NCBI RefSeq assembly: GCF_020520425.1
Contig: NC_079490.1
Span: 4,464,001 to 4,528,000 of the forward strand
Reading direction: 5' to 3'
Source: Spinacia oleracea
Taxonomy: Eukaryota > Streptophyta > Magnoliopsida > Caryophyllales > Amaranthaceae
Length of the DNA: 64,000 nt
The translations under genes and the position numbers were made by a program. Of this stretch, positions 10,481-52,200 are shown in pieces. The notes under the pieces were generated by a model. It worked only from the letters and a program-made list of their open reading frames with translations. It ran no database searches and was not told the origin of the DNA. The stretch's first letter is position 1; each line of letters begins with the position of its first letter.

Positions 10481-11517
10481 TCGTAACGACTTGCTTGAAT
10501 TGAAAGTTAGGTAAGCATAATTATGTTTTTTGCATCGTATCGTACAAAGATTTTATACTATATATGAAAAGAGGTATTAAAAGGGTTTTTTCCCCTTCAA
10601 ATTACCCGATTTTACCCCTATTATAGCAACTGATCTCGCAGAAAGCTTGTTTATTTTGTGTCGTTGGATGTTGAAAAGTGTAAACTATTTTTTATTCTTG
10701 TATATGTTAATGAGGAGCAAGTCTCAACCTAAAAGTGTAACTTTGTGGTATTGCACTATTGGTATTTTGGGAGTAGATAGTGGACAAATTAGTGTTGCTT
10801 TTATTAGTAAGTTCATGTTAATTATTATGGAGGGGCCAAACTTCATGTAATCAAAGGAGTAATGCTATTTTATTACGGATTTATGATATTGTAAGTTTGT
10901 AACCAACATATTGAATTAATCATATAATCGCCTAGTTTATTACTAACATGCATAAGTACCAATATTTTTCACAATTTCTAGCAATTAACTTAGGTAATTA
11001 TATCAAGTGTTATAATCCTTTAAACTAACTAAATCATTTAGTCACGATCCTCTTTACATTTCAATGAACGGTGACAACAAGGGGGAAAAAAAGATAGAAT
11101 GATTGGTGTTGTTGTTGTTTCATAAGAGAAGTCTTAGAGTGGATCTCTTCATTTGTTTTTGATATAATACATATTAATTCACATTTGTGAGAAAATGTCC
11201 TTATATAGCTAGCTTATTCAGACTATAAAATAAGTTTGTGTAAGTCGAGGACATAGATAATCTTTGATAAAATAATTTCAAAAGCTATCACTAGAGAATA
11301 AGAAAAGTTTAATTTTAAAACACAATTCTTTAATAAATATTTTCAAAAGTTATCAAGATGAAAGTAAGAAAAGTTTAATTTTAGAACACAATATACTCCA
11401 ATACATGGAATATACCTTTCTTTTAAGTAGTTAGTGTAAAATAAAAAACAGAAGCCTTGTTTTGCTGATTCGCCTGACTGCTTTGACCGACGGTTTGTAC
11501 GTATTGTATTTTTTTTA
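10481..11517. other. AT-rich intergenic DNA, nothing recognised
   Basis: No gene, RNA or clear transposon end was recognised. Short open frames here lack coding features. Confidence 0.5.
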
Positions 11518-11903
11518 GGCAAATTTGTCCAAAACTACCTTATAAATTTAATTATTTGTAAAAAACTACCTTATAAAAAAAATGTTGCAATTAACTACCT
11601 TATAAAAAATTTATGTTGTAAGAAACAACCTTTTCCCGAATTACGAACGTTTCATCGAAATTCCGGGATTGACTTTACCATATATATGTCACGTGCCATT
11701 TAATTACGTCTTTCCCGTTAGATGTCGCGTAATATGCACCTAGTAAAATTAACGTCGTAATTTTGAATTAATGCTCATAATCTAGCCAAAGGTAGTATCT
11801 AACAACATAACATTTTTATAAGGTAGTTTATTACAACATTTTTTTTATAAGGTAGTTTTTCGCAAAAATCATATTTTATAAGGTAGTTTTTGACAAATTT
11901 GCC
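11518..11903. mobile_element. Mutator-like MITE with 9-bp target duplication
   Basis: The termini are inverted: GGCAAATTTGTC at 11518 and GACAAATTTGCC ending at 11903. Each is followed inward by repeated ACTACCTTATAAA motifs in opposite orientations. It is flanked by the 9-bp direct repeat TTTTTTTTA (11509-11517 and 11904-11912). A 9-bp duplication fits the Mutator superfamily. No open frame is carried, so it is non-autonomous. Confidence 0.8.
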
Positions 11904-12465
11904 TTTTTTTTATTATTATTATGTTTGAATTTTTTTGTACAAGTTATTTTCCGTCAAACAAAAGCAAAAATATTACTCCAATTAGCTTATTTATTTTGAC
12001 TTAAGAACTAGATTTTAGTTGGTTAGAAGTTAAAAGCTTAGTTACCAAACATATATTTTGGCCGGTTTTAATCAAATAAAATACAAAAATCAATGAAAAA
12101 AATGAAAAATCATTTACTAAAAGGTCCAAATATCAATTACACACGCCACAGATTCTAAATGTGATACGTATTCCATGTCATCATGTTACTTAATTTTGGA
12201 CTTTTATATTTGAACAATGACTTTTATTAAAAAATGAAAAAGTTTAGATGAAAGTATTAGGTGCTTTTTCTATTTTCTCCAAACCGACCAATCACCCACA
12301 CCGCAAAATAACATAAAAGATGGGGCATTTTGGACAAAGCTACTCAAAATAAATATCCTCCTGCGATATTTTTTTGTCGAATTTTCGCATGCAATAATTT
12401 GAAGTGAGTATTTTTTATTTCTTTCTATTTTTAAAATACTCCATAAAGAATACAACGATATATGG

Positions 12466-15425: not shown

Positions 15426-15695
15426 CCCTACAAAAAATAGTACCATTAACGACGGGAAAATTCCCGTCGCTAAAGGTCAATAATCATTGATTAATGACGG
15501 GATTTCTTGTCATGAACCCGTCATAAAAAGGGGTCGTCGTTAATGGAAAATTCCGTCGTTAACCCGTCATAAAAGACATTTGCGACGGTTGTTCCCGTCT
15601 TTGTTTGGTTTTAACCCCGTCACAAAAGGCTTTTACGACGGGATTTTTGACCCGTCGTAATTAGGTTGTCGTTAAAGATACAATTTCTTGTAGTG
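15426..15695 (+). mobile_element. CACTA MITE, copy 1
   Basis: The right end is TTTCTTGTAGTG, the inverse of the CACTACAAGAAA CACTA terminus. The left end CCCTACAAAAAAT has decayed by a few bases. The flanks carry the 3-bp duplication ATA (15423-15425, 15696-15698). The interior is a mosaic of short GACGGG/CCCGTC repeats in both orientations. It is non-coding and homologous to the elements at 18005 and 20612. Confidence 0.82.
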
Positions 15696-18004: not shown

Positions 18005-18273
18005 TACTACAAGAAATTGTAATATTAACGACGGAAAATCCCGTCGCTAAAGGTCAATAATTGTTCATTAACGATGGGATTTACCGTCGCGAACCCATCA
18101 TAAAAGGGGGTCGTCGTTAATGGAAAATCACGTCGTTAACCCGTCGTAAAAGACATTTGCGACGGTTGTTCCCATCTTAATTGGGTTGTTATCCCTGTCG
18201 CAAAAACCCTTTTACGACGGGATTTTAATCGTCGTTATTAGGTCATCATAAAAGTTACAAATTTTTTATAGCG
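18005..18273 (+). mobile_element. CACTA MITE, copy 2
   Basis: It is homologous along its length to the element at 15426-15695, with the same GACGGG/CCCGTC mosaic. The left end TACTACAAGAAATTGTA is one base off the CACTA terminus; the right end is decayed. The flanks carry the 3-bp duplication GCA (18002-18004, 18274-18276). Confidence 0.8.
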
Positions 18274-20611: not shown

Positions 20612-20851
20612 CACTACAAGAATTTGTTTCTTTAACGACAATCTAATTAATTAATACGGGTCAAAAATTCCGTCGTAAAAGCTTTTTATGACGGGGCTAA
20701 CAACCAAACAAAGACGGGAACAACCGTCGCAAATGTCTTTTATGACGGGTTAACGACGGGATTTTCCATTAACGATGACCATTTTTTATGACGGGTTCGC
20801 CACAGGAAATTCCTTTATTAATCAATGATTATTGGCCTTTTTTTTGTAGTG
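20612..20851 (-). mobile_element. CACTA MITE, copy 3 (inverted)
   Basis: The best-preserved copy at its ends: it starts CACTACAAGAATTTG and ends TTTTTTGTAGTG, flanked by the perfect 3-bp duplication TAT (20609-20611, 20852-20854). Its interior is the reverse orientation of the copies at 15426 and 18005. Confidence 0.88.
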
Positions 20852-21712: not shown

Positions 21713-21717
21713 CACTT

Positions 21718-22142
21718 TGTTTGGGCTCCCAGTTGATTCTCAATTGGGCCACTAAGTCCAAAGCCCAATGGCTCTAAACAACAACATCAAACCTACCAAT
21801 GGCTATTCAGCCATCCATTAAGGCCCAAGGCCCAATAACAATAAGTGACCTATGGGCATTTATTATGCAAACACTATAAATAGGCCGCCAAGGCTCACAC
21901 CTCAAGGTACGTCAAATTTACCGCCTTAAGACTACTCTTCTAGAGAACTTCTCTCTAGAATCCGAGCATCATTCTTACTTAGGCATCGGAGGGGCTTTCC
22001 TCGGAAACACCCCCGAGGCTAGTAACTTTGCTATTGTGCAGGTGAATTCGGACTCCACTCATTCAAACAAGCAAGATCTTCAACACATACAAAAGGGCCT
22101 TCATTCGAAGCCCATTGTTTCCATCTTTACAACACCGGAACA
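21718..22142 (+). repeat. 5' LTR
   Basis: 425 bp, beginning TGTTTGGGCTCCCAG and ending ACACCGGAACA. I found no difference from the 3' LTR when reading the two side by side. It contains a TATA box at 21875-21882. Confidence 0.95.
21875..21882 (+). promoter_or_regulatory. LTR TATA box
   Basis: TATAAATA in the context CACTATAAATAGGCCGCC, a standard plant core promoter. Transcription of the genomic RNA would start about 30 bases downstream, near 21,905. The same box occurs in the 3' LTR near 32,968. Confidence 0.75.
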
Positions 22143-22145
22143 ATT

Positions 22146-22162
22146 TGGCGCCGTCTGTGGGG
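22146..22162 (+). promoter_or_regulatory. Primer-binding site
   Basis: Three bases after the LTR lies TGGCGCCGTCTGTGGGG. The TGGCGCCG core matches the complement of a plant tRNA-Asp 3' end; the rest matches less well, so the tRNA identity is tentative. Confidence 0.65.
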
Positions 22163-22212
22163 AAGAACACTTCAAAGCCTTTGAAAGACATCAACCACCT
22201 CTTTCCGCGAAA

Positions 22213-25200
22213 ATGGTGAATGATGTTGTTAACAATGACGACGATATGATGGTGCGGTCAGATTCAGAATCTGACCAAGAGGGGCACCCTCAATCGATGG
22301 CGAGGTCACAGCCAAGCAGAGCTACGACCGCCACAAATGCAGGACCTCCGATTCCAACTAGGGAAGAGCTCACTGCGGCCATGACCATCATGCAAAACTT
22401 CCTCTTCAATGAGAAGCAGCAAGGACTGGCAAACGACCGCAGAGAAGAGAGGAGGACCAGGCGAAGGCTGAACGAGCCACCCAGTGCAGAAGTGTCCAGA
22501 CCCGAACGAGAACTCCTTCCCTTGACAGGAACACACTTGACGTCGAGGTGGACGGAAAGCACGTGGGACACCCAAAAAAGGGCACAACAGCAACCAGATT
22601 GGTTTGCGAGACCATCGCCTACTCCAACAGCTCTCCAAAGCGAATCAACTACTCGTAACACTCGGATCCGAAGCTCGGTGCTCAGCAGGTTGAGGCCCTC
22701 GGTCCACTCAAGGTTAAGACCTTCGATCCACACGAGACTCGGGGTAGGTGAGTCGAGCAGATCTGGCGAACGACCCGAGGTCAGTAGCCGAGAAAGAAGA
22801 AGAGACAGGAGGCATGATCGAACCCCTAGCCCCCATCGTACGCCCGAACGTTCTAATCATAGAACCTCGGCAAACGAAGGCATCAGGGCTAGACTCGGGA
22901 AAAGAATCATGACTCCTACGTCATCCCCTTTCTCGGACGAGCTGATTATGGAAGAAATACCGAAGGTAAGACTGCCAGCTCACCTAACCTACAGCGGAAT
23001 CACAGACCCGAGGGATCATGTCATCTCCTACGAGCAGCAAATGTTCTTGAGTCCCTACTCCGAAGCATGCTGGTGTAAATACTTCCCAACCACGCTAACC
23101 GGAGTGGCGGGAGAGTGGTTTAGATCGCTGCCGAAGGGATCGATCAAGAGCTGGAAAAAGCTGAAAAAGAGATTCTGCACACAGTTCGTGAGCAACAATC
23201 GCCCCGAGCGAACCACAGCAGAACTGACCTCAATCCAACAAGAAAGAGACGAAAGTCTGAGAGAATTCATGGCCAGATTCATGAAGGAATCAACAAACAT
23301 ACCAAACTTGCAGCCAGACGTGGCCATCTTCGCCTTGAAGCACGCGCTCCAGGAAGGGAAGTTCCGTGACGAACTCTCAATGAAGAACCCCTCCAGAATA
23401 GCTGACGTGCTCCAAATGGCGGACGCGTTCATCAGAACCGAGGAGTTCAACAAGGCCGCTGCAAGACTGAAAGGATCGTCGGATCCGAGAGACACAAAGA
23501 ATACCCAGAGCAAGCCCGAGGGTAGCTCAAGGAAGGGGAAAGAGAAAGTAGGAGCTAGAGAGATGAGCCCGAAGAAAGACGGGAGAAGGGGTGAACTTCA
23601 ACCCAAGTACACCAACTACACTCCACTAGCTCTGCCCCGAAAGGAGATATTCAGCCTCAACAGAAATGACGAAAAGTGGAAACTACCTGGGAAGCTCAAG
23701 TCCAACCCAGCTCGGAGAAACAAGAACAAATGGTGCGAGTTCCATGATGACTTCGGTCACCATACCGAAGAATGCAACTCGCTGAAAGACAACATTGAGG
23801 ACCTCGTTCGCCGAGGCTACCTGAAACAGTACTTGTTAGACCGAAGGGAGGAAAAAGAAAAGGCCGCAAGCGGCAAACAACACGAGCAACCCCAGAAAAG
23901 GGTCTACGAAGCAACAGGGCACAAGAAAAATGACATCCTAGTGGTGTTCGGGGGACAGAAGTCTGGCCAGGCCAGCAAAAAACACCTAAGAGCCCTCTCC
24001 CATCGGGTCAACTTCAGCGCGGTGGGAGACAACCAGCCACACCCCCCGAACATGACCTTCACTGCTGATGATTGCTTCGGAGTCCAGTACAAGCATGATG
24101 ATCCTCTGGTCATCTCCATGGACCTCAATAACCACAACGTACATCGAGTATTAGTCGACGGAGGAAGTGCCGTCAATATCATCTTCAGAAACTGCTTCGA
24201 GCAGCTGATCCTCGAAGAGCCAGAGGAAGCACTGACGAAAGTCAGTTATCCTCTGATCGGATTCAACGGATCCGCAGCTATCCCTCGAGGAAAGATCACC
24301 CTGCCAGTCACAGTGGGCGAAGGCCAGGCAGCAAAAACCCTTCGGGACGAATTTTTGGTGATGGACTGCGACTCCGTATACAACGTAATCATGGGGAGAA
24401 CCATGATTCACAAGATGCAAGCAGTCCCCTCCACATACCACCAGCTGATGATATACGTCTCGGATGCAGGATTCGCCGAACGAATCAGGGGTGATCAAGA
24501 AGTGGCGAGAAGAACCTGCCACACTGCTGTCCGAAAGCCCAAACTAGAGGACGGCCCCGAGGAAGAAAAAGGAGCTAAGGGAGAAGAAAGCGAGGCAAAA
24601 AGAAGAAGAGCAAGCACGAGCAGCTTGTCTCCCGCAGAAGTTGATGCTCGCCCCGAAACCCTATCTCCCGAACCAGATCAAGAAATGGAGGATATCTTCC
24701 TCGAAGATAATTCAGACAGGAGCGTCCGAATAGGCAAGGGCCTAAGCTCGGGGCTCCGAATCGATTTGATCCGACTACTCAGGGATCACAAAGACATCTT
24801 CGCATGGTCAGCAGCAGATATGCCAGGGATAAATCCGAAGCTGATTTGTCACAAGCTGGATGTCAACGCTGAAGCTCGGCCAGTCAAGCAAAAAAAGAGA
24901 AATTACTCCTCGGAGAAAAACAAAGCCATCGCCGAGGAGGTTAAAAAGTTGCAAGAGGCCGGATTCATCGAACCATGCATGTATCCGAAGTGGCTGGCCA
25001 ACGTGGTGATGGTCAAGAAAGCGAACGGCTCATGGCGAATGTGCGTAGATTTCACAGATCTGAACCGAGCCTGCCCCAAAGACTGCTATCCCCTGCCAAG
25101 GATAGATCAACTGGTTGACTCCACCAGCGGCCATGCACTGCTCAGCTTCATGGATGCCTTTTCAGGCTACCACCAAGTATTCATGCACCCCGATGACAGG

Positions 25201-27963
25201 GCAAAGACAGCGTTCATCACAAGCGCAGGAGTGTTCAACTACAAAATGATGCCTTTCGGCTTAAAAAATGCCGGAGCCACCTACCAGAGGTTAGTTGACC
25301 ACGTCTTCGCCGACCAGAAAGGGAGGAACGTGGAGGTCTACGTGGATGACTCCATCGTAAAAAGCATCAAGGAGGAAGACCATGTCAAAGACTTGGCAGA
25401 GACCTTCGGAAATCTGAGGAAATACAGCATGAAACTGAACCCAAAAAAATGCGTCTTCGGGGTGAAGTCAGGGAAATTCCTCGGATTCATGGTGAGCGAA
25501 AGAGGAATTGATGCGAACCCAGACAAAGTCCAAGCGGCATTGGATTTACCCGAGCCGAAGACCAAGAGAGATGTGCAGAGGCTAACCGGCAGGTTAGCCG
25601 CACTAACAAGGTTCATATCAAAAGCCTCGGACAAGGGAGCCCCCTTCTTCAAGGCACTGAAACCAAAGAACCTCCCCGGAGGAGAAGCAGAACCAATCAA
25701 GAAAAAGGGGGTCCCGAGGAAAGTGGATCCCGAACTGATATGGGAACAGGAGCAAAAAGAAGCTTTTCAGCAACTCAGAGCCCACCTAGCTCAACTGCCG
25801 ACACTGGCCAGACCAAAGGAGGGGGAAACCCTGTACCTATATGTCGCAGTTAGCCCTGGAACCGTCAGCGCAGTGCTTCTTCGGGAAGAAGAAAAGAAGC
25901 AACAGCCAATCTACTTCACCAGCCGAACACTTACAGGAGCCGAAACCCGGTACCCACTCATCGAGAAAGTCGCATATGCAGTAGTGGTAGCTGCACGAAA
26001 ACTGAGGCCATACTTCGACTCCCACCAGATCACAGTGCTAACTGACCAACCGCTCGAAAAAGTACTCGACAAAATAGAGAGGTCAGGAAGATTGGCTGCC
26101 TGGGCCTTCGAACTATCAGAGTTCGGCATCAAATATCAGCCAAGGACAGCAATCAAAGCACAAGCATTGGCAGACTTCTTGGCCGAGTGCTCATACCAGG
26201 AAATGTTGGATGATACGAAAAGCACTTGGGAGGTCTTCACTGACGGATCTTCCACAGTAAACGGCTCAGGGGCAGGAGTTGTACTAATCCCCCCGACGGG
26301 GAAAAGCATAGAGTATGCATTGAAGTTCGGCTTCAAAGCAACCAACAACGAGGCCGAATACGAGGCCGCAATCGCAGGGATAGAGCTTTGTTTATCCCTG
26401 GAGGCCGAACATGTTCGCCTCAAAACTGATTCCCAGCTTGTAGCCAACCAGATCCGAGGAGAGTATGAGGCCAAATGGCCCAGCATGACAGCCTATTTAG
26501 CAAAGATTAAATCCTTAACGTCAAAGTTAAGATCCTTTGAAGTCATCCTCATTCCCCGAGGACAGAACGCGCAAGCAGACGCACTGTCAAAACTCGCAAG
26601 CTCGACACTCATCGACCTAAACAGGTCGGTCCACGTGGAAGTTCACCAGGAGAGAAGCATCGACTTGCTACCCACCACAGTATGCAGCTTACGCACCGAA
26701 CCGAGCTGGATGGACGCAGTAGTTGCATACAAAGAAAGGGGAGAACTTCCTGAAGATAAGCTGCAAGCGAGAAAACTGAAAAGATTCAACAGATGGTTCA
26801 TCATCAGCGCCGAAGGAGAGCTCATGAGGAAATCATTCTCTGCTCCGCTGCTAAAATGTGTGGGTCCAACAGACGCTGACTACATCCTAAGGGAAATCCA
26901 CCTCGGGATATGCGGAAACCACATTGGAGGTAGGACATTAGCACATAAAGCCCTTCGGGCTGGGTACTGGTGGCCCACTATGGTTTCCGAGGCAAAGCAG
27001 ATGGCAAGGAAATGCGAGAAATGCCAAAAGTTCGCACCAGCCATCCATCAACCAGCTCAAGCCCTACAATCAACACTGTATCCCTTACCATTCGCACAGT
27101 GGGGGTTAGACATCATTGGTCCCTTCCCCTCAGCGACGAACCAGAAGAAGTGGTTGATTGTAGGAGTCGACTATTTTAGCAAATGGATCGAAGCCGAAGC
27201 TGTCTCCTCCATCACCGAACCTCAGGTCCGCAAGTTCATATGGCAGAACATCATCACAAGGTTCGGCATACCAAGACTGATGGTCTTCGACCACGGGAAA
27301 CAGTTCGACAACACCCCGTTGCAAAAGTGGTGCAAACAGTTCGGCATACACCTAGCATACTCGGCAGTCTGTCACCCACAAAGCAACGGGCAAGCCGAAG
27401 CCGCTAACAAACTCATCCTCAACGCACTCAAGAAAAGAGTCGAGGATGACAAAAACAAATGGTTAGAAGAGCTACCCGGAACGCTATGGTCCCTTCGGAC
27501 CACTGAAAAAGAAGCTACCGGACAAACACCGTTCCACCTTGTATACGGATCCGAAGCTGTAATTCCTGTGGAAATCGGAACAGAAAGCCTGAGGATCCAG
27601 GCATACAACAGGTATGATGGGCTCCAAGGAGAAAGCAACAACCAGCTTCTATCCGAAGCTCTCGATCTACTGGATGAAGCTCGGAACGATGCAAGGACAC
27701 TCAACGCAGCCTATTTGCAGAGGGTCAACAAGCATTACAACCGAAGAGTCAACGCCAGACCCCTAAAAGTCGGTGATCTAGTACTCAGAAACGCCGCCTC
27801 GGTTCAGAAAGGACGGATCCATGGCAAACTCTCAGCCACTTGGGAAGGACCATACATCATCCATTCCGAAAAAAGGCCAGGCACGTATATGCTGAAACAA
27901 TTAGATGGAACAATTCTGAAGAACCATTGGAATACCGATGTTCTCAAGAAATATTTTGTATGA
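22213..27963 (+). CDS. Gag-Pol polyprotein of the Tat-lineage retrotransposon
   Basis: A single uninterrupted frame of 1,916 residues. I start it at 22213 (MVNDVV) because the earlier in-frame ATG at 22036 lies inside the LTR. Domains by nucleotide position: Gag capsid region (about 22980-23220, GEWFRSLP); a variant zinc knuckle with spacing CX2HX4HX4C (about 23733-23775); aspartic protease with DGGS (about 24160); reverse transcriptase with MDAFSGYHQ and catalytic YVDD (25339-25350); the usual RNase H (about 25750-26200); a second, archaeal-type RNase H (about 26225-26610, FTDGSS, NNEAEYEA, KTDSQL); and integrase with its HHCC zinc site and DDE core (LDIIGPF, FDHGKQF, NGQAEA; about 26850-27600). 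The product copies element RNA and integrates the DNA. No frameshift or stop is seen, so it looks functional. Confidence 0.95.
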   Translation: MVNDVVNNDDDMMVRSDSESDQEGHPQSMARSQPSRATTATNAGPPIPTREELTAAMTIMQNFLFNEKQQGLANDRREERRTRRRLNEPPSAEVSRPERELLPLTGTHLTSRWTESTWDTQKRAQQQPDWFARPSPTPTALQSESTTRNTRIRSSVLSRLRPSVHSRLRPSIHTRLGVGESSRSGERPEVSSRERRRDRRHDRTPSPHRTPERSNHRTSANEGIRARLGKRIMTPTSSPFSDELIMEEIPKVRLPAHLTYSGITDPRDHVISYEQQMFLSPYSEACWCKYFPTTLTGVAGEWFRSLPKGSIKSWKKLKKRFCTQFVSNNRPERTTAELTSIQQERDESLREFMARFMKESTNIPNLQPDVAIFALKHALQEGKFRDELSMKNPSRIADVLQMADAFIRTEEFNKAAARLKGSSDPRDTKNTQSKPEGSSRKGKEKVGAREMSPKKDGRRGELQPKYTNYTPLALPRKEIFSLNRNDEKWKLPGKLKSNPARRNKNKWCEFHDDFGHHTEECNSLKDNIEDLVRRGYLKQYLLDRREEKEKAASGKQHEQPQKRVYEATGHKKNDILVVFGGQKSGQASKKHLRALSHRVNFSAVGDNQPHPPNMTFTADDCFGVQYKHDDPLVISMDLNNHNVHRVLVDGGSAVNIIFRNCFEQLILEEPEEALTKVSYPLIGFNGSAAIPRGKITLPVTVGEGQAAKTLRDEFLVMDCDSVYNVIMGRTMIHKMQAVPSTYHQLMIYVSDAGFAERIRGDQEVARRTCHTAVRKPKLEDGPEEEKGAKGEESEAKRRRASTSSLSPAEVDARPETLSPEPDQEMEDIFLEDNSDRSVRIGKGLSSGLRIDLIRLLRDHKDIFAWSAADMPGINPKLICHKLDVNAEARPVKQKKRNYSSEKNKAIAEEVKKLQEAGFIEPCMYPKWLANVVMVKKANGSWRMCVDFTDLNRACPKDCYPLPRIDQLVDSTSGHALLSFMDAFSGYHQVFMHPDDRAKTAFITSAGVFNYKMMPFGLKNAGATYQRLVDHVFADQKGRNVEVYVDDSIVKSIKEEDHVKDLAETFGNLRKYSMKLNPKKCVFGVKSGKFLGFMVSERGIDANPDKVQAALDLPEPKTKRDVQRLTGRLAALTRFISKASDKGAPFFKALKPKNLPGGEAEPIKKKGVPRKVDPELIWEQEQKEAFQQLRAHLAQLPTLARPKEGETLYLYVAVSPGTVSAVLLREEEKKQQPIYFTSRTLTGAETRYPLIEKVAYAVVVAARKLRPYFDSHQITVLTDQPLEKVLDKIERSGRLAAWAFELSEFGIKYQPRTAIKAQALADFLAECSYQEMLDDTKSTWEVFTDGSSTVNGSGAGVVLIPPTGKSIEYALKFGFKATNNEAEYEAAIAGIELCLSLEAEHVRLKTDSQLVANQIRGEYEAKWPSMTAYLAKIKSLTSKLRSFEVILIPRGQNAQADALSKLASSTLIDLNRSVHVEVHQERSIDLLPTTVCSLRTEPSWMDAVVAYKERGELPEDKLQARKLKRFNRWFIISAEGELMRKSFSAPLLKCVGPTDADYILREIHLGICGNHIGGRTLAHKALRAGYWWPTMVSEAKQMARKCEKCQKFAPAIHQPAQALQSTLYPLPFAQWGLDIIGPFPSATNQKKWLIVGVDYFSKWIEAEAVSSITEPQVRKFIWQNIITRFGIPRLMVFDHGKQFDNTPLQKWCKQFGIHLAYSAVCHPQSNGQAEAANKLILNALKKRVEDDKNKWLEELPGTLWSLRTTEKEATGQTPFHLVYGSEAVIPVEIGTESLRIQAYNRYDGLQGESNNQLLSEALDLLDEARNDARTLNAAYLQRVNKHYNRRVNARPLKVGDLVLRNAASVQKGRIHGKLSATWEGPYIIHSEKRPGTYMLKQLDGTILKNHWNTDVLKKYFV

Positions 27964-28345
27964 TCTCTGTCTGTAAACCAAGTAAGTTGTTTAATGAGAA
28001 GAGGAAAGCCATTGGCACCATGTGTTTCATTAAACTTATCTCTACATTTATTGTCCCCTTATATATATATGCAGCCTCGGATCTGATCAATCCGAGACTA
28101 AAAACAGGTTGACTTTGTCCATTCCTTGATAAAATGCAAGAAATGACCAAATCATACACTTCAGGGAACCGTCCAGAATCCTCGGATTCGCGGTACCCTA
28201 ATAAAATTTGTTCGCAACAAACAGTCGCTCGAATCAAGTTATAAAACTCCGGCTCAGATCCACGGATCGCCGAAGGCATAACTAAAGAGGCAGACTAGCG
28301 ATCTCTTGCCCAGGTTTCCGAACCACAAGAGATCGGAAGAACAAT

Positions 28346-28625
28346 CCAAACCTCTGAGCAGATCGACGGATTTGAAGAGTCTGGAAACTAAAGAGTCTCT
28401 TAGCAGATCTACGGATTTGAAGAACTCGCAAAACTAAAGAGTCTCTTAGCAGATCTTCGGATTTGAAGAACTCGCAAAACTAAAGAGTCTCTTAGCAGAT
28501 CTACGGATTTGAAGAACTCGCAAAACTAAAGAGTCTCTTAGCAGATCTACGGATTTGAAGAACTCGCAAAGTCAAAGAGCCTCTTAGCAGATCTACGGAT
28601 TTGAAGAGCTCGCAAGGTCAAAAGG
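28346..28625 (+). repeat. 46-bp tandem array inside the retrotransposon
   Basis: About six head-to-tail copies of a 46-bp unit (AGAGTCTCTTAGCAGATCTA followed by CGGATTTGAAGAACTCGC). Unit starts are at about 28346, 28392, 28438, 28484, 28530 and 28576, then a decayed partial copy. The central copies are almost identical. The array lies between the convergent ends of gag-pol and the antisense gene. Confidence 0.9.
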
Positions 28626-28975
28626 TTTTTAGCAAGTCTACAGAAAGAGGAGCTCGAGAAATCTACGGATTTAAAGACCTAAAAATTGCGAAAGAACAAG
28701 TTGAAAAGAAGCAGCCAAGTAACAAACATTCATTTTTTATTCAATATTTGGGGGAAGTACAAATACATCGAAAAACCTCAAAAATTGAAAACAAAATGAA
28801 ACAAGTTAAAATCGGCAGCCATCAACAGACAATACCGGCCTACCGAAGTACTAAAGAAAACAAAAAAGAAATAAGTACAACGCAGCGCCGAGGCAAAAGG
28901 GGGGAAAGGCAAGCACATGTTCGGAAGTCCTCAACTGGAACCGACCGACTCTGAAGAAGACGACTGCCCGAATCC

Positions 28976-31900
28976 CTAGCTCTTGGGAGTCTCAGGAGCA
29001 TCCCCCAGAGGAGCATCCTTCGAAGAACCCCCAGCAGTAGTATCACCTTCGGAAGCCGCCTTCTGGGCCCGAGCCTCTGCAAGAGCAGCTTGGCGTTCAG
29101 CTTCAGCTTCGTCTCGATCGGCCTGGCACTCCACCAAGTGATCCTGGGCCCTCATCCAGAGCGGAACCTTCTCATTCCAAGGGAAATGAGGCATGTGCTT
29201 CGCGAACATCCGCCGAGCACCCAGGATGCCATTCCAGTATTGCTCTCTACACTGATCAGCAGTGTAGAGGTCAACTCTCTCTTGCTCCAACTTCCGAATG
29301 GCAGCATCTTTCTCTCGGATCTTCAGCTGGAGAACGGGCACCTTGTCAGCTTGATTCTGAACAATCTCCCGGTGCTTGATAAACTGCTGAAGCCTCGCCT
29401 CCGCTTCCTGGCTCTGCTTAATGGCCGCCTCAAATTTAGACGTCATCTCCTTGAGAAGACTGTCTTTTTCTTCAAGTTCGCTCGCAAACTTGGCAGCCAT
29501 TTCTCTCCTCTCCCTGTCGAAGGAAGCTATCTTTTCAGCATCCTCTTCAACTTGGAAAGTGAGCCTCCCAACTTCGGCCCCGATCTGTTCCGCCGCTTCC
29601 CTAGCCTCACGACTGTACTGAAGGTACAGTTGCTTGAGGTCCACCATCTCGGCCATGAGCTGCCCAGCCTTCTGGTCCAAGACAGGGATATCACGAGCAT
29701 AAGCCTCCTGATACCTCCTCAGCTGCCTTTCCTCAACCGAGCTACACTCGGAAGCGAACGAGGACCAGAAAACAGCCTGGGAAAGAAGAAAAGACAAGAA
29801 AAGATGAGAAAAGAAGACAACAAACCAAAAACGGAACTCAAAACAAAATTTCCAACACTTACCTCATTCAGATAATATTGGGCCATCATAGCTGGGTTCC
29901 TCTCCTCAGCTCCAGGAACCCTCCACTGCGGGTTGGCCCGAAGAAGATTCTCCCGTGCAGCTTCGGGACCCACCAAAGATCCCACGTGAGCCATGGGGTT
30001 CTCCCCCAAAACCGGAGCTCTGGCATAGCGAGCCATCGCTTCCCTTACCTCCTCGGGGATCCGTTTCAGCGGAACATCCGAGCAAGGGTCAGCGTGGATC
30101 AGTCTATCCAGGGCCGAGGTCGAAGTGGAGCCCAAGGTCGAATGACGCCTCTTCCTCGTCAGACCCTGCTCGGGTTCCTCCTTCTCAGCTTCGGGAACCT
30201 CTACGTGAGCTTCGGTGAGATCCACCATCTCCTTATCCGGACTTTTCTCCCTTTCGAGAGAAACGTCAGCAGCTTCTTCCTTCTGCTCGGCCACAATAGG
30301 GACATCCGAGCCAGGAACAAGGTCGGCTTCAATTGCCTCCATCACCTTGGTTATATCCTGGATCTCGATCCCTAAAGCAGCAGACGGCTTCAGCGGAGAA
30401 GGGATGGTATCTTCCTCAGCCAGCGGTTGGTCCACGGGAGGCGGTTCCACAACCACCACACTCTTCAACTTCTGCCCGGGCAAGGGCATGAAGTGAAGGA
30501 GGTTTTTGGGAGGAGGCATGACTTCCGAAACCACTTCCTACAGGGCAAACGCTCAAAGGTCAGTTTCAGAAAAAGAGAGAACAGACCACAAAAGCTCTAA
30601 GTCAGAACAAATACCTTCTCCGAAGACTGATCAGCTTTCGCCTTCTTCGGATGCGCAGAAGGCCTCAAAAGAGTGCTGCTCTTCCTTTTGCGCTGATCCT
30701 AAACAGAAGAAACCAAGGGTCAATAAAGGTAAAACAAGACAAAGGAAGGAATAAAGAAAAATCGCGAAGTACCCGGTTCCTAGATAAAGAGATATCTATC
30801 CGAGCCGGAGATGAAACCGAAGGAACGGCACGCGGCACAGCGTCAGTCCCAGGACCCTAAAAAGATGGTCCAGGACCAAGACGTTAGCCGACGGCCAACC
30901 AAAAAGAAAGACAAACAAAAGATATTGAGACTAGAAACACTCACCGGATCCGAGGTTGTCCTCAAATCAGGGAGCACGACTTTCACTGGAACAGCTTCGG
31001 GAGAAGAGGCAGAATCCCACGGATCAGCTCGAACTTCAGATATCCGAGCGACACCCGACGGAGACAGCACGTAATCCTTCAAGCGAGGATTACGAGGATT
31101 CTCCTTCCCGAACTTATAATCAGGGGCCGAGTCGTGAATGGTCTTCAGATCCAAAGAAATACCCAAGACCACAGGATCAACGCAACTGAAGCCGTACTCT
31201 GCAGAAACAAAGCACAAAACGAAATCAGTAAAACGAGACCAAAAAGGAAGAGGGCAAACTTACTAAAGCACGGTCCCAGCCGAAAGACACCTACCCCTGT
31301 CAAAAATCCTGCTGAGACCGGCAACAGCAAGAATGTCCTCCCGCAAAATATAGTTGAGGTTCGGGAGCCAGTTGGACGGCAATTTGTAGCTGTCCTCCCG
31401 AGCCAAAAACCACTGGAGGAGATCCACGTAGTGGTGATGGTTCCGATCCGGAGCAGCCACGCTTCGCATATCAGGATCAGGAGTCACAAACCACTTCGGA
31501 GGGCGGTAAAAATGTGGATGCTTCGGATCTGTTGGCACACGAACGAACAACCACTCCGTCTTCCAGTTATGATCAGAGCTGAGGTAAGGGTAGGCCGTAA
31601 TATAGTTCGGCTCCCCCTTTCTTCGGGATCTTTTGTTGATAATGGTCCACCAACCATACCCATCCCCCTTGGAAGCATGGTTGAAAGACAGATCGTGCAG
31701 ATCCCGAAACACGGCAACAGAGCATGGAAAGTTAATAAAATCGCACACCCATCTAAATCCGATGATGTGCCTCATAGATTTGGGGGTAAGCTGGGCCAAA
31801 CTGATGTTATACGACACCAGGAGCTCGGATATGAAGGGATCCAAAGGAAAGCGGAGGCCGTTCTCCAAATGATGAGTATACACAGAGATGAACCCCCTCG

Positions 31901-32369
31901 GCGGATGAGTCACCCGAGGACGCTCCTGGTCGGGAAGCTCGCACCAGTACCCCAAGGCGTGCTGGATTCCGTATAACTCTTCGGCCCTCCGATGGTAATG
32001 CCCCAGCTTCGCCTCCACCAACCAGTCACCACTGACCGATTTTTCCAAGGGACCATCGATCTTAGTGGTCTCATGCAGAATCGGGGCATACTTACCCTGC
32101 GGATCAGCTTCAGTCCAATGAACTGGAAACTCAGGGTAGGAGCGGCGCACACCCGAAGAGCCAGCCTTTTTACCAGAAGTTGCGCGTTCAGACACGCTAG
32201 ACCCGCCAACAACATCATCTTTCGAAGCATCCCAACCAGTCGAACGCCTCTCCACTGGCCTCTCCGAAGGCCGAACCCTCGAAGTTTTCGGCAACCTTCC
32301 CGAAGGCACGTTCTCCCTCTCACTAGAGGAGCCAACGACGAACTTGCTCTTGCCCCTATTCTTTGCCAT
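28976..32369 (-). CDS. Spliced antisense gene of the retrotransposon (gypsy-type putative transposase domain plus coiled coil)
   Basis: A minus-strand gene inside the element, transcribed against gag-pol. Six exons join without a stop: 32369-31295, 31198-30945, 30856-30773, 30698-30615, 30537-29863 and 29776-28976. The five introns are 74-96 bases, all GT-AG, and phases agree, giving 990 residues. Residues about 60-330 (motifs YPEFPVHW, LRFPLDPFISELL, AQLTPKSMRHIIGF) look like the plant domain called putative gypsy-type transposase (PF04195-like), whose function is not established. Residues about 440-620 are low complexity, acidic and basic, with an RKRR cluster that could be a nuclear signal. 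Residues about 735-900 form a long coiled coil. Start chosen at MAKNRGKSK; the frame stays open upstream to 32549. A TATA box lies at 32625-32633. Antisense frames are known in Tat elements; this product's role is unknown. Confidence 0.85.
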
Positions 32370-32624
32370 GGCCGCGAATTCTCGGTCTAGGGTTGAGATT
32401 GAGGGGTAGAAGGAAAAACGAAGAAAAAAAGGAGAATTCAGAAACAAATTACCTTCTTCCGAAGCGGAATTCGCCGATAAAACGAACAGCACAAGTTCCC
32501 GAAGTCCAAAGTTGGCCGAATTTCGTAGATCTGAAGAAACAAATCGCACTGCGATCGCCGGAATTTAGAGAGAGAAAGGGTTTGAAAGAAGGAGTAAAAA
32601 GTTCGAAAAGAGCAATACACCCCG

Positions 32625-32633
32625 TATTTATAG
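32625..32633 (-). promoter_or_regulatory. TATA box of the antisense gene
   Basis: On the minus strand it reads CTATAAATA, followed about 30 bases on by CT-rich leader sequence, roughly 250 bases before the ATG at 32369. It lies outside the 3' LTR, so the antisense gene seems to carry its own promoter. Confidence 0.65.
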
Positions 32634-32799
32634 AAAAGAAAAGGGGCGCATCAACTTCCTCAACCCACGATCTACACGGCACAATACAACTCCCAACACT
32701 TGTCATCAATGCAAATCATCCCTTTTCAAAAAAGAGAGGGAACTTTCGGACTTCTGACAGCTGGAAACCCACCCATTTAATTCTAAATGGACCGGGTCT

Positions 32800-32806
32800 G
32801 GGGGGC
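32800..32806 (+). promoter_or_regulatory. Polypurine tract
   Basis: A GGGGGG run in the context TCTGGGGGGCATGT just before the 3' LTR, the expected place for the plus-strand primer. Confidence 0.6.
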
Positions 32807-32810
32807 ATGT

Positions 32811-33235
32811 TGTTTGGGCTCCCAGTTGATTCTCAATTGGGCCACTAAGTCCAAAGCCCAATGGCTCTAAACAACAACATCAAACCTACCAATGGCTATT
32901 CAGCCATCCATTAAGGCCCAAGGCCCAATAACAATAAGTGACCTATGGGCATTTATTATGCAAACACTATAAATAGGCCGCCAAGGCTCACACCTCAAGG
33001 TACGTCAAATTTACCGCCTTAAGACTACTCTTCTAGAGAACTTCTCTCTAGAATCCGAGCATCATTCTTACTTAGGCATCGGAGGGGCTTTCCTCGGAAA
33101 CACCCCCGAGGCTAGTAACTTTGCTATTGTGCAGGTGAATTCGGACTCCACTCATTCAAACAAGCAAGATCTTCAACACATACAAAAGGGCCTTCATTCG
33201 AAGCCCATTGTTTCCATCTTTACAACACCGGAACA
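32811..33235 (+). repeat. 3' LTR
   Basis: 425 bp from TGTTTGGGCTCC to ACACCGGAACA, matching the 5' LTR without a difference I could find. It is followed by the CACTT target duplication. Confidence 0.95.
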
Positions 33236-33240
33236 CACTT

Positions 33241-45600: not shown

Positions 45601-46218
45601 AGCTCGTACTGCATTCAGTGCATTGCATTCCAAGATTACATTATCATAGCCAAATCTTCTCGGCAATAGCATCTAATACTAAATTTGGCTCAAAATTCGC
45701 CTTGTTTCTACAAAACCATGCGGCCCGGGCGAGTGTTGCAAACTTGCTTAGCTTCACCCTCTCCAACTTATTAGCAACCCAATGAAATCTCTCGACAAAG
45801 GGCGAGCTTGGAGCATCCACAATCATGCTTACAAATTCACCATGAGCTCATATCAACGAGGCGAATTTACACTCAAACAGTGTATTATTGTTTTCCTCCC
45901 TGCATCCACAGACCACGCAATTATTCAATTGAGGAATGTGGTGATTAAAAAACACATTCATCACCCCTAGACTCCCTTTGCAAGCACGCTAGATGCAGCG
46001 GGTTAGCTTCGATTGTCTTCTAAAGCTCCATACTATTTTCCACTGATCGACATACAACCTTAATCATTCTTTCGAATGTGATACTTCAAAAACACATTCA
46101 TCGCCCCTAGACTCCCTTTGCAAGCACGCCAAGTGGAGTGGGTTAGCTTTGATTGTCTTCTAAAGCTCCATACTACTTTCCACTGATTGGCGGACAATCT
46201 TAATAATTCTTTCGAATG
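45600..46218 (-). pseudogene. Decayed L1-type LINE fragment
   Basis: Minus-strand frames resemble the end of a plant LINE ORF2. A Cys-rich segment near 45900 reads NNCVVCGC..NNNTLFECKF, like the zf-RVT zinc motif, and a following segment reads KFATLARAAWFCRNKANFE, like the linker to the RNase H region. Stops and frame changes interrupt it. The 5' portion (45948-46087 and 46088-46218) is a tandem duplicate of about 140 bp starting near AAAACACATTCATC. Confidence 0.6.
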
Positions 46219-46574
46219 AATTACAAGTTTTTCCACATTATACGTTGTTAGTTTTTTCTGGATTTTTTTTCAAAGAATTTTTTAACACACCATTTTTTGA
46301 TTTGTGGGAGTAGTAGAATTGAAAATATTCAGATCTAAGTATAACATAGCAAAGTAATTTCAAACAAATTCAATTCAATAAAGACCTTATATTTGTTAGT
46401 TTATTTAAAACCTGAAAGTATGAGTTTGTATCTTATATTAAATTGGTTGACGTAATATATTACTTAAAGGTAAAAAATGAAAAGTTAACCCTGTTATAAA
46501 AATATTGTCTTCTATTATCTTAACCCCATTAAAAAAATTGAATCCTTTAATAAAAAACCACTCTGTACTACTTT

Positions 46575-46880
46575 CTCCGTCCCTTTTATTATTTACGTAT
46601 TTTGTTTTAGGCGCTCCCTTTTATTATTTATGTTTGGAATATTTTTCTTTTAATATTGCATAAAACAATGTGCCAAAATTTATTAAATATTCAAACATTT
46701 AATTTACTTTGCCATTCCCCACTCCTTCCCTCCGCTCACCTCATCTAATTAATGAGGAAACTAGAACTTTTATTATTTAACTAAAAAAATTTAAAAAATC
46801 AAAACTTTTTTTTTATCATACTTAAATGCGCCTGCATGATATCCACCGTAAAGAATAAAAAAGACGGAAAATAGTATTAG
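46575..46880. mobile_element. Diverged Stowaway MITE
   Basis: The left end TACTTTCTCCGTCCCTTTTA and the right end AAAAAGACGGAAAATAGTA are inverted relatives of the Stowaway terminus. The interior is AT-rich and non-coding. Confidence 0.55.
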
Positions 46881-47080
46881 CTATGTACGAAATACAATGA
46901 AATATGTTTAGAAATATGAGAAATTAAGTATTTCCACGAAAAAAATTAAGATGAATGCTTTCAACAAAATTCAACAAGCACGATTTATTGAAATTGACAT
47001 CCACAATACTCAGTAACTGCTTTTTAGTTACGAGTATTGTTACCCCTTTAACTTTACCGTGCAAATGCGTCAACATGCTA

Positions 47081-48791
47081 CTCCATCTGTCCAGAAATGT
47101 TCTTTATACCTGGTATTTTGCACTCGTTTTAATGACTAATTAATGAATTAAAATTTCTCTATTTTTTATTTTATTTTGAACAAGACAAATTACGTTCATT
47201 CATAATATTTTCACTTGTATCAAAAATCTGACAATGGAAAAATATATAAGATTTAATGTTACAATGGAAAAGTAGGAGAGATTATTTACCCCAATGAATT
47301 TAATTGGTTAATATAATCTCTGAACATAAATTTAGTTTGAATATTAAAATATTTATGTGATAATATAAAATGAAAACATAAACGGTTTTTTCATGAAATG
47401 CCCCCGAGGTTTCACGAAACGCACCAAATACATCTGCGCGTTTCAAAATACATAATATACCCCTTTTTTTTAAAAAAATGCACCAAATGCCCTTAAATGT
47501 CCTTAATGACTAACGGCTGTTAACTCCATTAGTATTAACCTCTAATTGTCTCTAATTAACTCTAGCTAACAAATAACCTAATTACAATTCAAATCACAAA
47601 ATCAAGCATAAACTAATCAAAAACTATGAACAACCAATTAAAGAGAGAATTAAAGAATAAAAGAGAGAGTTAATTATACCATTAATAATTGAATTTGAAG
47701 CCCAAAATTGAAGAACCAATATTCTGAAAATAAAGAACAGAACTAAGGGAGAGAGAAAAAGAAACTGAAAGTTTCTGAATTCCAATCCCAGAAAACTAAA
47801 ATCCAACACAAATTTGAACTCCAAAGTGCTCTAATCTACCTTAACAGTTGTTGCTGTCCCTTTACATACGTTGTTGCTGCTATTTTTGAACAAAATCAGA
47901 ATACTCAAGAATAAAAAATGAGAAGAACGAAGAAGCAAGAAAAATCCCCAACTCTAAACTGAAATTCTAGCTACCGATTCCAATTTCTAATTTCTCTCTA
48001 ATCTATCTTCTCTGCGCTATACCCCCCTCCCTAATCGGAGCTCATATTCCCCCTCTTATGTGCTGCTGCTGCCCTATTTTGTTCCCTCCCCCGTCGAACA
48101 GCCCCATCGCAAAAATGTATCAGCCCAGAAAAATAGGGGTTGTTTGTTCCATGTTGTTGTGCAACTTTGTTCTTCGTCCTTCGAATCCAACCCCCCAAAT
48201 TCGCAAAAAAATCAGCCCAGAAATAGGGGCAGCACCATGTTCATGTGCGGCCGCACGAAATTGATACGGGTACGCGCACGGTTTCATCAAACTTCAATTC
48301 ACGATTTCAATTCACTCGAAAATCTGGGTTCAAATATTTTGGGATTTGAGTTAGCAATTGAAGTTTGACGAAGATGGGTTCACCATTTTGATACCCAGAA
48401 AAAGGAGATGTGAGATTGAGAGGAGAGAGGGGATTTTGAGCTAATTAGGGTTCATTAGGTGTTAATTAGGATTAATTAGGCTAATCAGTAGTTAATTAGG
48501 GTTAATTTAGGATTAGTTAGATTAATCAAGAGTTAATGTTAACGGAGTTAGACTTCCGTTAAGTCTAGAGGCATTTGGTGCAAATAAATTTAAATAGGGG
48601 TATATTATGTATTTTGAAACGCGCATGTGTATTTGGTGCGTTTCGTGAAACCTCACGGGTATTTCATGAAAAAACCGAAACATAAAAAACATTTTAGACA
48701 CTCGAATAAGTAGAGAATATCTCGAACACTCAGAATAGAATACGTAAAGAACGTTTTGAGATCGGGTGCAATTATTTAGGAACGGATAGAG
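47081..48791. mobile_element. Stowaway MITE split by a nested Mutator-like element
   Basis: The left part begins CTCCATCTGTCCAGAAATG after TA (47079-47080). The right part ends AGGAACGGATAGAG before TA (48792-48793). The two halves were separated by insertion of the element at 47383-48677. Confidence 0.75.
47383..48677. mobile_element. Mutator-like element, 1.3 kb, with long TIRs
   Basis: The inverted ends extend about 80 bases or more: CGGTTTTTTCATGAAAT..CCC, then GGTTTCACGAAACGCACC, TGCGCGTTTCAAAATACATA and ATATACCCC, matched in reverse at the right end. The flanks carry a perfect 9-bp duplication AAACATAAA (47374-47382, 48678-48686). The interior (about 47600-48400) is less AT-rich and has leader-like CT-rich stretches. 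It could be captured host sequence (Pack-MULE), but I recognise no gene in it. Confidence 0.85.
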
Positions 48792-48798
48792 TATAAAA
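48792..48798 (+). promoter_or_regulatory. Probable TATA box of the coiled-coil gene
   Basis: TATAAAA begins with the TA target duplication at the right end of the Stowaway. It is followed by a leader with a probable 5'-UTR intron (donor AAG/GTGAG at 48971/48972, acceptor TTTTTCTGCAG ending at 49117) before the ATG at 49219. Confidence 0.55.
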
Positions 48799-49218
48799 TC
48801 AAATTTTGGGTGGGAATTGGGAAGAAGCACACTCACATTCCATTTTCTGATTTTCATTTCACGACTTCTCATCTTCCCCCCACCCGTCTTCTTCTAACAC
48901 TGAACTTCTGGCGTACTACACTAATACATCCTAGGTTTCATTTCATTCGCAAAAAACGGAGTAATTCCAAGGTGAGTTCCTATATTCTGGGCTTGAATCT
49001 CCGTAGATTTTGTACTTTTTAAAATAAAAATGATTTTAGTGTAATAATAGCAGTCTTTTCGCATAATTTACACTGATTTTTGTTGAAATTTTGATTGAAG
49101 TTCATGTTTTTCTGCAGTGCCCATTAAAATTACTGTCTAGGGTTGATTATCTGATGTTAATATAGTGGAAATCCGCCATTTTTGTGTAATTGTGTTGTTG
49201 ACTTGTGGGTAGTAGAAA

Positions 49219-52200
49219 ATGAGTTCAATTTCGGTCAAGCAGTCACCCAAGAGCAGCAATTGCTCTGGGGGTTCACAAACTCCTTCGATTTCCGGCTTAA
49301 TCGGGGGTTTGAAAACGTCGTTTCTCGACAAGGATTATACGGCAGCTGTGAGGAAATTGAAGGAGAGGGAGGAGGGTTTGAGGAAGGAGATAGAGAGGGA
49401 GGTGGGTTTGAGGAAGGAGAAGGAAGAACTTGTGGTTAAATTGAGGGAGAAGAGTGACATTTTAGAGACTGATTTTCGGGAGTTGAATATGAAGAATCTT
49501 GTGTTGGAGGGGGAATGCAAGTTATTGAAGCGGGAATTGGAAGTAAATGATGATAAGTTGAATGATTTAGATAGGGAATTGAGGTCGGTGAAGGAGAGCG
49601 AGAGGATGTCGATCGAGAGGTGTGGTCGTATGGTTGGCGAGCTTAGGGAAATGGAGGGTGAGAAGCAGAGTTTTATTCAAAATTTGTCTGATTTGAGTGA
49701 TATGGTGGATGAAATGAAGAGAAAGTTTAGGGAAAAGGAAGAAAAAATGGTTGAGGCTTTGGGGAAGAAGGATGCTAAGTTGGAAGAATTGGAGAAGAAG
49801 CTGAAATTCGATGCCCATTTGGTAGAATTAAAGAGAGAGAATACGGAGAAGATGAAGGAGCTGGATGAACTAAAGAAAATATTGAAGGGAAAGGAAGAAG
49901 AGATGGTTGAGGCTGTGAAGAAGAAGGATGCTCAGTTGGAAAAACTGAAAAGAGATACCCATTTGGAAAAATTAAAGAGGGAGAAAGAGGAGAAGATGAA
50001 TGAAGTTGAGATTGCGCAACTTAAGGCCCAAGTTAAAGCTCAGAGGGAAGAACTGGAGGGTGTGCAAAGGACGAATGCGTCTTTGGAGGAGCGAAAGGCA
50101 GAATTTGATGCCCGTGTTAAAGAGCTAACGAAAGGTAATGAAGAAAAAGATGAGAGAATTAAGAAGTTGGGAGAGGAAATTGAGATTTCAGAGAAGGGAA
50201 AAAATGAAATTGTGAAAGAGAGGGATGAGCAAATCCAAGAACTCAGGAAAGAGAGAGAGGGTTTAGGTGTAAAGATCAGGGATTTAAAAGCAAAGTTCGG
50301 GCTCGTGGAAGAGAATTTTTTGAAACTTGAGGGGGATGTGATCACTTCTTTGTGTTTGGATTTGGGGAGAAACAAAAGATTTGCAAGTACTTATCTTGGT
50401 AAAGTTTTATCCGGAGTAATTAAGGCTCTCGATTCTGGAAAAGTTAGTCATACTTGCAGTGCAGGAATGGCTAAAGATGGAAATCCTCAGGAAGCAGGTA
50501 TTTATTCTTTTGGTAACGCTATTTGTATTCGATCAATATGACCCATATTTTGCGTGTGGAAGGCTTATTCTTTGTGAGGCTCAATTGAAGCTCGTGAAGG
50601 CTGCTTATTTGTTTCCTTCAGTAAATATTTGGAGGATGATGAACTGTGTTTTTTTGTGATTTTGAGACAAATTAGGTTGCGAAGATAAAAAGTTGCGTTA
50701 ATGTACCAAATAGGCACATATATACTATACTTTGGTAGTTTGGTTTATTGAAATGGTTTTCTATACATTTAAATTATAATGACATAAACAATGTGATAAG
50801 CCCATAATTATGAAGGTAGAACAAAAAAAATTGCATCTCTGTTTTTGCTAGATTTAAGGTTTTACCAGATCTCTGTGGTTGCTTCTGTCGTTCGTTTGAC
50901 TTATGTGAGGATAAGTTAAATTGTTAAGGAGCTAATGGGAAAGGACTTAGGTAAAGATGGGAAATAATATTGTCAAAGAATAGCTTATTTTGCTAGAAAA
51001 TTTAAGGCTACTTTGATACCTTAAACTGGGTCCGTTTTTCTTAATTGAAGATTTTTTTACTACTTTGCTTCTAAATCACTCCATACCTACTATTTTAGCC
51101 ATTGCTCTTTGTTTGTTTTATTATCTTAATCTTGCTTGGATTTGAAACTAGATGTGTAAGGGAATGCTTTGTATACTGAAGGATATATCCATGTTTTAAG
51201 AATTTTGGAGTGTATAGGAGTATGAATGCAAATATGTAATGACTTAGTATCTGGTTGAAAGGGGTACCTTTGATGTATAAGGACTTTGATCCTTTTACTA
51301 TAAAGTTGGTAATTAACATTGACAGTGTAAAATGGAAAACATTTGCCCATGCATGTAAGGGGTTTTTCATTCGCTTTAGTATGTTGTTAACCTGCTGACA
51401 TGATCTGCACTTTGAGCAATCAAGACAGTTGCTAGTGCATACAAGTGATGAAACATTGAATGCAATAACTTAAAATTAGTGCTTCCTTGTGAAGGATCTT
51501 AACTATTTGAATTTGGTGGACCTAATGTCTAGGTTGGCATTGCTATCGGCCATTGCAGTGATAAAACTATTCTTGTTTAGGGATTGACATGGTGATGTGG
51601 GCAACAGGGCATGTGTAGTAGTTAGTAGTTATGCTGTAAATTTGTGGATGAGATTTTCTTTCATCTTTTTTTTTTTTTTTTTTTTTTTTAACTTGCTTCA
51701 TCTTGAATGTGATTGACTAGGCATACTAGGCTCTAATGTTCTGTAGTGAACTTGTCAAATACATGATTTCTGCAGTTCTGCTGCTGTAATTTTCTGGGGT
51801 TGTCTGTTGTTAGATTATTCACGATTAGTGATGTCAAGTTCTTCATATACGTAGTAATGTTTAACATGGAACTTGCAATACTATGGTTTTCAGATCTACC
51901 CAAACGATAATGAGCAATTGAGCATCCATGTAAGATTAAAGTGCCTGTCTCCTTCTCTCTTTTATTTTTCTAATCTAACTAGCTTCCTCCGTGCATGCTG
52001 TCAATCTAAATGAATTCACTTTTTGTCTTAACATTTTTATGAAGTGGGCTCGTGGAAATTATGTGAGAGTTACCGTTTAATGATTTCTTGTGTTCGATCA
52101 TGAAACAATGTAATGATGCCTAAAAAACCTCGGATGTTGAAAATTTTAAATGATGTATGCCTGCTTGGGAAATATTTTAGCATTACTTTACACTGCAAGA

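Follow-up and report, generated by a model that had tools for sequence, protein, structure and literature searches.

Antisense open reading frames with a Transposase_28 domain (PF04195, TRP28) are a known hallmark of Retand elements and occur in 97% of the Retand clusters with recent activity (Vicient 2025, PMC11963269). The available portion of this survey describes their function as unknown and DNA binding as predicted for TRP28. Its main text never uses the word 'intron' (0 occurrences). For an earlier classification eORFs were extracted with getorf, with a minimum length of 250 codons (Neumann 2019, PMC6317226). In the excerpts at hand the eORF proteins are called highly heterogeneous, TRP28 is assigned to 23% of Retand elements, and splicing is treated for the gag-pol intron of Ogre. 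Maize Grande carries gene23, an antisense gene which is transcribed via an upstream promoter and encodes a nuclear protein (PMC7264820, from the sections available). The authors of the latter paper call for the study of antisense and spliced transcripts.

The host element and its antisense gene

The window, i.e., the whole stretch of 64,000 nucleotides from Spinacia oleracea that was analysed (NC_079490.1, positions 4,464,001 to 4,528,000), contains a young Ty3/gypsy element (Table 1). The preliminary description spoke of identical LTRs; the pair is indeed equal at 425/425 positions and the 5-bp target site duplication CACTT flanks both ends. The ORF which contains gag-pol begins at 22036, inside the 5' LTR, and is open until 27963. 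In a profile scan of gag-pol, carried out in three separate pieces, a second RNase H (RVT_3) lies between RT_RNaseH and rve; no chromodomain was found in the three pieces at E up to 0.01. In the accessible text of PMC6317226, Ogre and Retand are recognised by an additional RNase H that is located between RH and INT. This criterion supports a place of the element in Tat, as had been proposed earlier, and the TRP28 frame that runs antisense in the interval from pol to the 3' LTR indicates Retand. The element is thus probably of the Retand type (Tat, Ty3/gypsy).

A close counterpart exists in the literature. The Retand cluster 'Spinacia oleracea 1', as it appears in Table 1 of PMC11963269, shares with the window element an LTR length of 425 bp, an antisense TRP28 frame and one tandem array. 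The internal lengths are 10,719 bp and 10,668 bp, the distances from pol to the 3' LTR 4,850 and 4,847 bp, respectively. Judged from these table dimensions, the two are probably members of the same family.

Elsewhere the window has an inverted repeat of 187 nt with a 14-nt gap (11517-11904) and a dispersed repeat of about 160 nt in three copies, one of them inverted (15458-15618, 18035-18195, 20677-20840). The GC skew is strongly positive (0.19-0.29) at 48001-54000, preceded by a negative stretch at 46001-48000.

Table 1. Coordinates of the host element and of the antisense gene within the window
Feature	Position	Strand	Remarks
Target site duplication, left	21713-21717		CACTT
Ty3/gypsy element	21718-33235		host of the antisense gene
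5' LTR	21718-22142	+	425 bp
gag-pol frame	22144-27963	+	gag, RT, RNase H, second RNase H, integrase in order
Tandem array	28352-28615		46-bp unit, 5.8 copies
AATAAA, possible poly(A) signal	28736-28741	-	spotted by eye
Coding exon 6	28976-29776	-	stop codon included
Coiled-coil-like region	29279-29728	-	aa 741-890; 3.5-residue periodicity
Intron 5	29777-29862	-	86 nt, phase 0, GT-AG; precedes coiled-coil region
Coding exon 5	29863-30537	-	
Intron 4	30538-30614	-	77 nt, phase 0, GT-AG
Coding exon 4	30615-30698	-	contains basic stretches
Intron 3	30699-30772	-	74 nt, phase 0, GT-AG
Coding exon 3	30773-30856	-	
Intron 2	30857-30944	-	88 nt, phase 0, GT-AG
Coding exon 2	30945-31198	-	
Intron 1	31199-31294	-	96 nt, phase 1, GT-AG
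Coding exon 1	31295-32369	-	
PF04195 Transposase_28 match	31695-31883	-	aa 163-225, E 7e-10
5'UTR intron, predicted	32387-32452	-	66 nt; GT-AG in 7/7 rows
TATA box (TATAAATA) of antisense gene	32625-32632	-	starts 32632, 179 bp from 3' LTR
3' LTR	32811-33235	+	matches 5' LTR fully
Target site duplication, right	33236-33240		CACTT

The antisense gene lies in the interval from pol to the 3' LTR; its six minus-strand exons add up to 2973 nt, i.e., 990 codons and a stop. This organization, with its five GT-AG introns, had been described before and was reproduced exactly when the exons were rejoined (phases 1, 0, 0, 0, 0). Also the stop at 31263, which the frame hits without splicing, is present in the ORF listing. 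The T content amounts to 0.45-0.57 in the introns compared with 0.18-0.30 in the exons. A GTAAGT at 31262 was considered as donor of intron 1 and discarded; combined with a CAG acceptor it produces a stop codon at the junction. The TATA box lies outside the LTR as originally described, and the stretch CTATAAATAC is unchanged in 7/7 rows (window and six siblings). There is no ATG between the TATA box and the start codon of the window gene. The segment from 32452 to 32387 is probably a 5'UTR intron, judged by its sequence, and was overlooked in the preliminary description. The gene would then have seven exons.

PF04195-like domains had been named earlier as common. The profile search of the product finds PF04195 with 39.4 bits, above the curated cut-off of 26.2, and the domain spans 63 of the 990 residues. 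No other Pfam family was matched at E up to 1. The middle of the protein has the basic stretches QRKRKSS, PKKAK and TRKRRH. The C-terminal part shows a heptad-like periodicity which is equalled by 0-4 of 500 shuffles in each of five windows (residues 741-810 to 821-890). An AlphaFold model of the exon 1 product, based on a 16-row alignment, is poor (mean pLDDT 42). A profile search of the PDB returned a single row at E 0.84 which was judged to be a chance match. Among viral_contigs no relative was matched with the first 358 residues as query.

Selection within the window family

The spinach genome was searched over 894,210,420 bases in 242 contigs. At the DNA level 40 matches were scored among 1,032 candidates, i.e., the window copy and at least 39 siblings with 93-100% identity. 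Full coverage of the query is seen in 36 of these 40 scored rows, one of which is the window copy. Their spans of 3,654-3,698 nt are close to the 3,665 nt of the query; therefore, barring a compensating insertion, none has lost an intron. This agrees with the earlier proposal that the introns persist through transposition.

Six of the 39 listed siblings, picked to cover 93-99% identity, were read. The spliced frame is kept to the stop codon in five (990 or 997 codons), and the exons of these intact siblings contain one indel, 21 nt long and in frame. The sixth sibling, L050, is decayed by a 1-nt insertion and lacks 153 nt of the end. All six introns, the 5'UTR intron included, are GT-AG in 42/42 cases (seven rows). 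Sibling introns carry indels which are not divisible by three. The introns diverge more than the exons in 19 of 21 pairs, yet not in the remaining two; between the window copy and L049 the divergence is 0.132 in introns and 0.047 in exons.

It had been suggested that the product is still under selection, and sibling dN/dS ratios bear this out. According to Nei-Gojobori (own script) the window copy compared with the six siblings yields 0.10-0.14. Across all 21 pairs the ratio is 0.10-0.19 in 19, and the two others (0.30 and 0.49) both have a dS below 0.02. The RT-RNaseH piece of the elements gives 0.03-0.07 in three usable rows; a fourth row, L056, which should have supplied the RT of the L050 element, proved to be non-homologous and was excluded.

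Intron positions and N-termini in other families

A PF04195 profile search of the genome scored 150 matches among 2,698 candidates. Twenty loci were read first, and another 20 mainly to obtain the 5' part (L040 repeats L019). They were drawn from the best profile matches, which biases the sample to better-kept copies. By DNA similarity we grouped them into families A, C and D. Over exon 1 the window protein shares 24-29% identity with the 15 other aligned rows. The codon which corresponds to the last one of window exon 1 is reached by 16 loci, and 15 of them have a G|GT there in phase 1; four loci break earlier and never reach this codon. The first intron is located at the equal residue and in equal phase in the window family and in families A, C and D, a homology based on the alignment of exon 1 and on the donor check. 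In L013 (family A) the GT donor of intron 1 is altered and splicing there would fail. Beyond intron 1 the sequences did not align across families.

Spliced alignment of the window protein against the first 20 loci with loose settings produced many spurious introns and was dismissed; a stricter penalty placed no intron in any of the 20. With the stricter setting similarity stops at residues 352-359 in 12/20 loci (exactly 358 in 8), reaches 366-369 in 4/20 and stops earlier in 4/20.

Nine copies of family C possess four coding introns, GT-AG in 34/36 cases. Introns 1, 2 and 4 mostly outpace the exons in divergence; intron 3 is no faster than the exons between close copies. The dN/dS ratios are 0.14-0.28 in 35/36 pairs, and one pair gives 0.59 at a dS of 0.029. 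In six copies of family D the introns are GT-AG in 16/18 cases, one being shortened to 31 nt; dN/dS is 0.09-0.28 in 15 pairs (exons 1, 2 and last). L034 of this family is clearly decayed, and the introns are less diverged than the exons in 4/15 pairs, all with L034. Five copies of family A have GT-AG introns in 15/15 cases and dN/dS of 0.13-0.41 in 10 pairs (part of exon 1, and exon 2); the introns are no faster than the exons in 1/10 pairs. Stops or frameshifts are present in many copies of families C, D and A. By eye, a phase-0 intron precedes the C-terminal coiled-coil region in families C, D and A as well as in the window gene. On this visual comparison, window intron 5 may be homologous to the final intron in each of these three families.

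The N-termini differ. Histone H3 begins ARTKQTA. Translation from the ATG which comes first behind the predicted 5'UTR intron would begin with M-ARTKKTAN in family D, M-ARIRQTAN in family C and M-ARTKQTTN in L043. A pattern for such starts, built after the first cases had been seen, matches 21 of 40 loci. Six of the seven residues of ARTKQTA are present in seven loci, of which L016, L028, L033, L034 and L035 belong to family D and L018 and L043 are of C type. Their starts are ARTKKTAN, ARIKQTAN and ARTKQTTN, at about position 700-760 in gene orientation. None of the 40 loci has the full 7/7. In family C the donor of the 5'UTR intron is GTAAGT in 12 of 15 copies, and an AG acceptor is present in 11; in family D the donor GTAAGG occurs in 3 of 6 copies. 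In L043 a search for the 5'UTR donor pattern found none. The predicted 5'UTR intron of families C and D contains several ATGs, thus splicing would strip upstream starts. The window family begins with MAKNRGKSK in 7/7 rows and family A with MDNNSKPQ or similar; therefore, the likeness to H3 is limited to the sister families C and D.

Interpretation and relation to known systems

With a probability of about 0.88 we consider the window locus to be a true spliced protein-coding gene in antisense orientation between pol and the 3' LTR, as judged from the comparisons of copies. Chance is a poor explanation because siblings and other families keep the frame and the splice sites. The antisense RNA would be transcribed from its own TATA promoter; the 5'UTR intron and five coding introns would be removed from it, and polyadenylation would take place before pol is reached. 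In the sense genomic RNA the introns would read CT-AC and remain unspliced, and therefore they would survive reverse transcription.

Other explanations have to be measured against the same data. The antisense transcript might act as RNA, forming dsRNA with the genomic RNA or giving rise to small RNAs, with an incidental frame. Regulation by dsRNA is raised as possible in the consulted parts of PMC7264820, and the whole antisense gene lies within the stretch that a sense genomic RNA would cover. Yet an RNA function would not constrain codons to a dN/dS of 0.10-0.14, restrict the exon indel of intact siblings to a multiple of three, or preserve splice sites, and we regard this explanation as improbable. 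RNA and protein functions of the transcript could coexist. Even less credit, in fact hardly any, is due to the idea that a plus-strand frame is the selected product and the antisense frame its shadow. Long plus-strand ORFs do overlap the gene (29090-29875 and 31134-31976). However, the four plus-strand frames which overlie coding exons have, in comparison with the six siblings, finite dN/dS ratios of 0.74-5.64, and several are interrupted by sibling stops. A fifth frame covers chiefly the leader; its values are 0.29-1.10, and it has stops and broken codons in 6/6 siblings. By these sequence comparisons selection targets the antisense frame.

Recent capture of a host gene, which the element would now carry as a passenger, would account for the multi-intron organization, which is typical of host genes, and PMC7264820, in the text at hand, discusses transduction as a source of some extra ORFs. 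The constraint on the antisense frame is contrary to passenger status, and homologues at the 24-29% identity given above share the first intron in three other element families. Since these families are so diverged, any acquisition must be old. Furthermore, the same text of PMC7264820 reports no such genes outside of TEs. Recent capture is thus very unlikely.

What the spliced gene encodes is a more tentative matter. At somewhat less than even odds, the product may be a nuclear, self-associating accessory regulator bound to DNA or chromatin. Contact with DNA or chromatin would be made by TRP28 and its flanks; the basic stretches in the middle would direct import into the nucleus, and the coiled coil at the C-terminus would oligomerise the protein. 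Such a regulator might control transcription of the element or counter its silencing. The functional part is weak because the structure model is poor. A wider proposition appears doubtful to us: that this is an ancient multi-intron antisense gene throughout Retand, cut into ORFs by surveys, with a chromatin-acting counter-silencing factor as product, and that in families C and D the N-terminus would mimic the H3 tail after removal of the 5'UTR intron and the initial Met.

If TRP28 ORFs are exons of one spliced and constrained gene, ORF-based catalogues have fragmented the protein, and spliced models supply the full protein for tests of expression, localisation and binding. Moreover, a retroelement can retain host-style introns despite RNA-based movement when these introns are on the opposite strand.

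The gene as a kind is already known. As far as was searched, by title and start of abstract and with few subscription papers covered, neither introns in antisense Retand genes nor an H3-like start were found in the literature, and the conserved multi-intron architecture together with strong constraint is the addition made here. In the survey PMC11963269, according to its available text, ORFs were identified via ORF Finder, whereas the window gene is a single spliced frame tested for selection. The maize Grande gene23, as presented in the accessible part of PMC7264820, is antisense and located between pol and the 3' LTR like the window gene; it has an upstream promoter of its own and a nuclear protein. 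HBZ and APH-2 of HTLV are antisense genes too, likewise placed at the 3' end of their element. With the nuclear regulator proposed here they share a functional analogy at most: following the same excerpts of PMC7264820, the antisense promoter of HTLV resides inside the 3' LTR, whereas the TATA box of the window gene is positioned outside.
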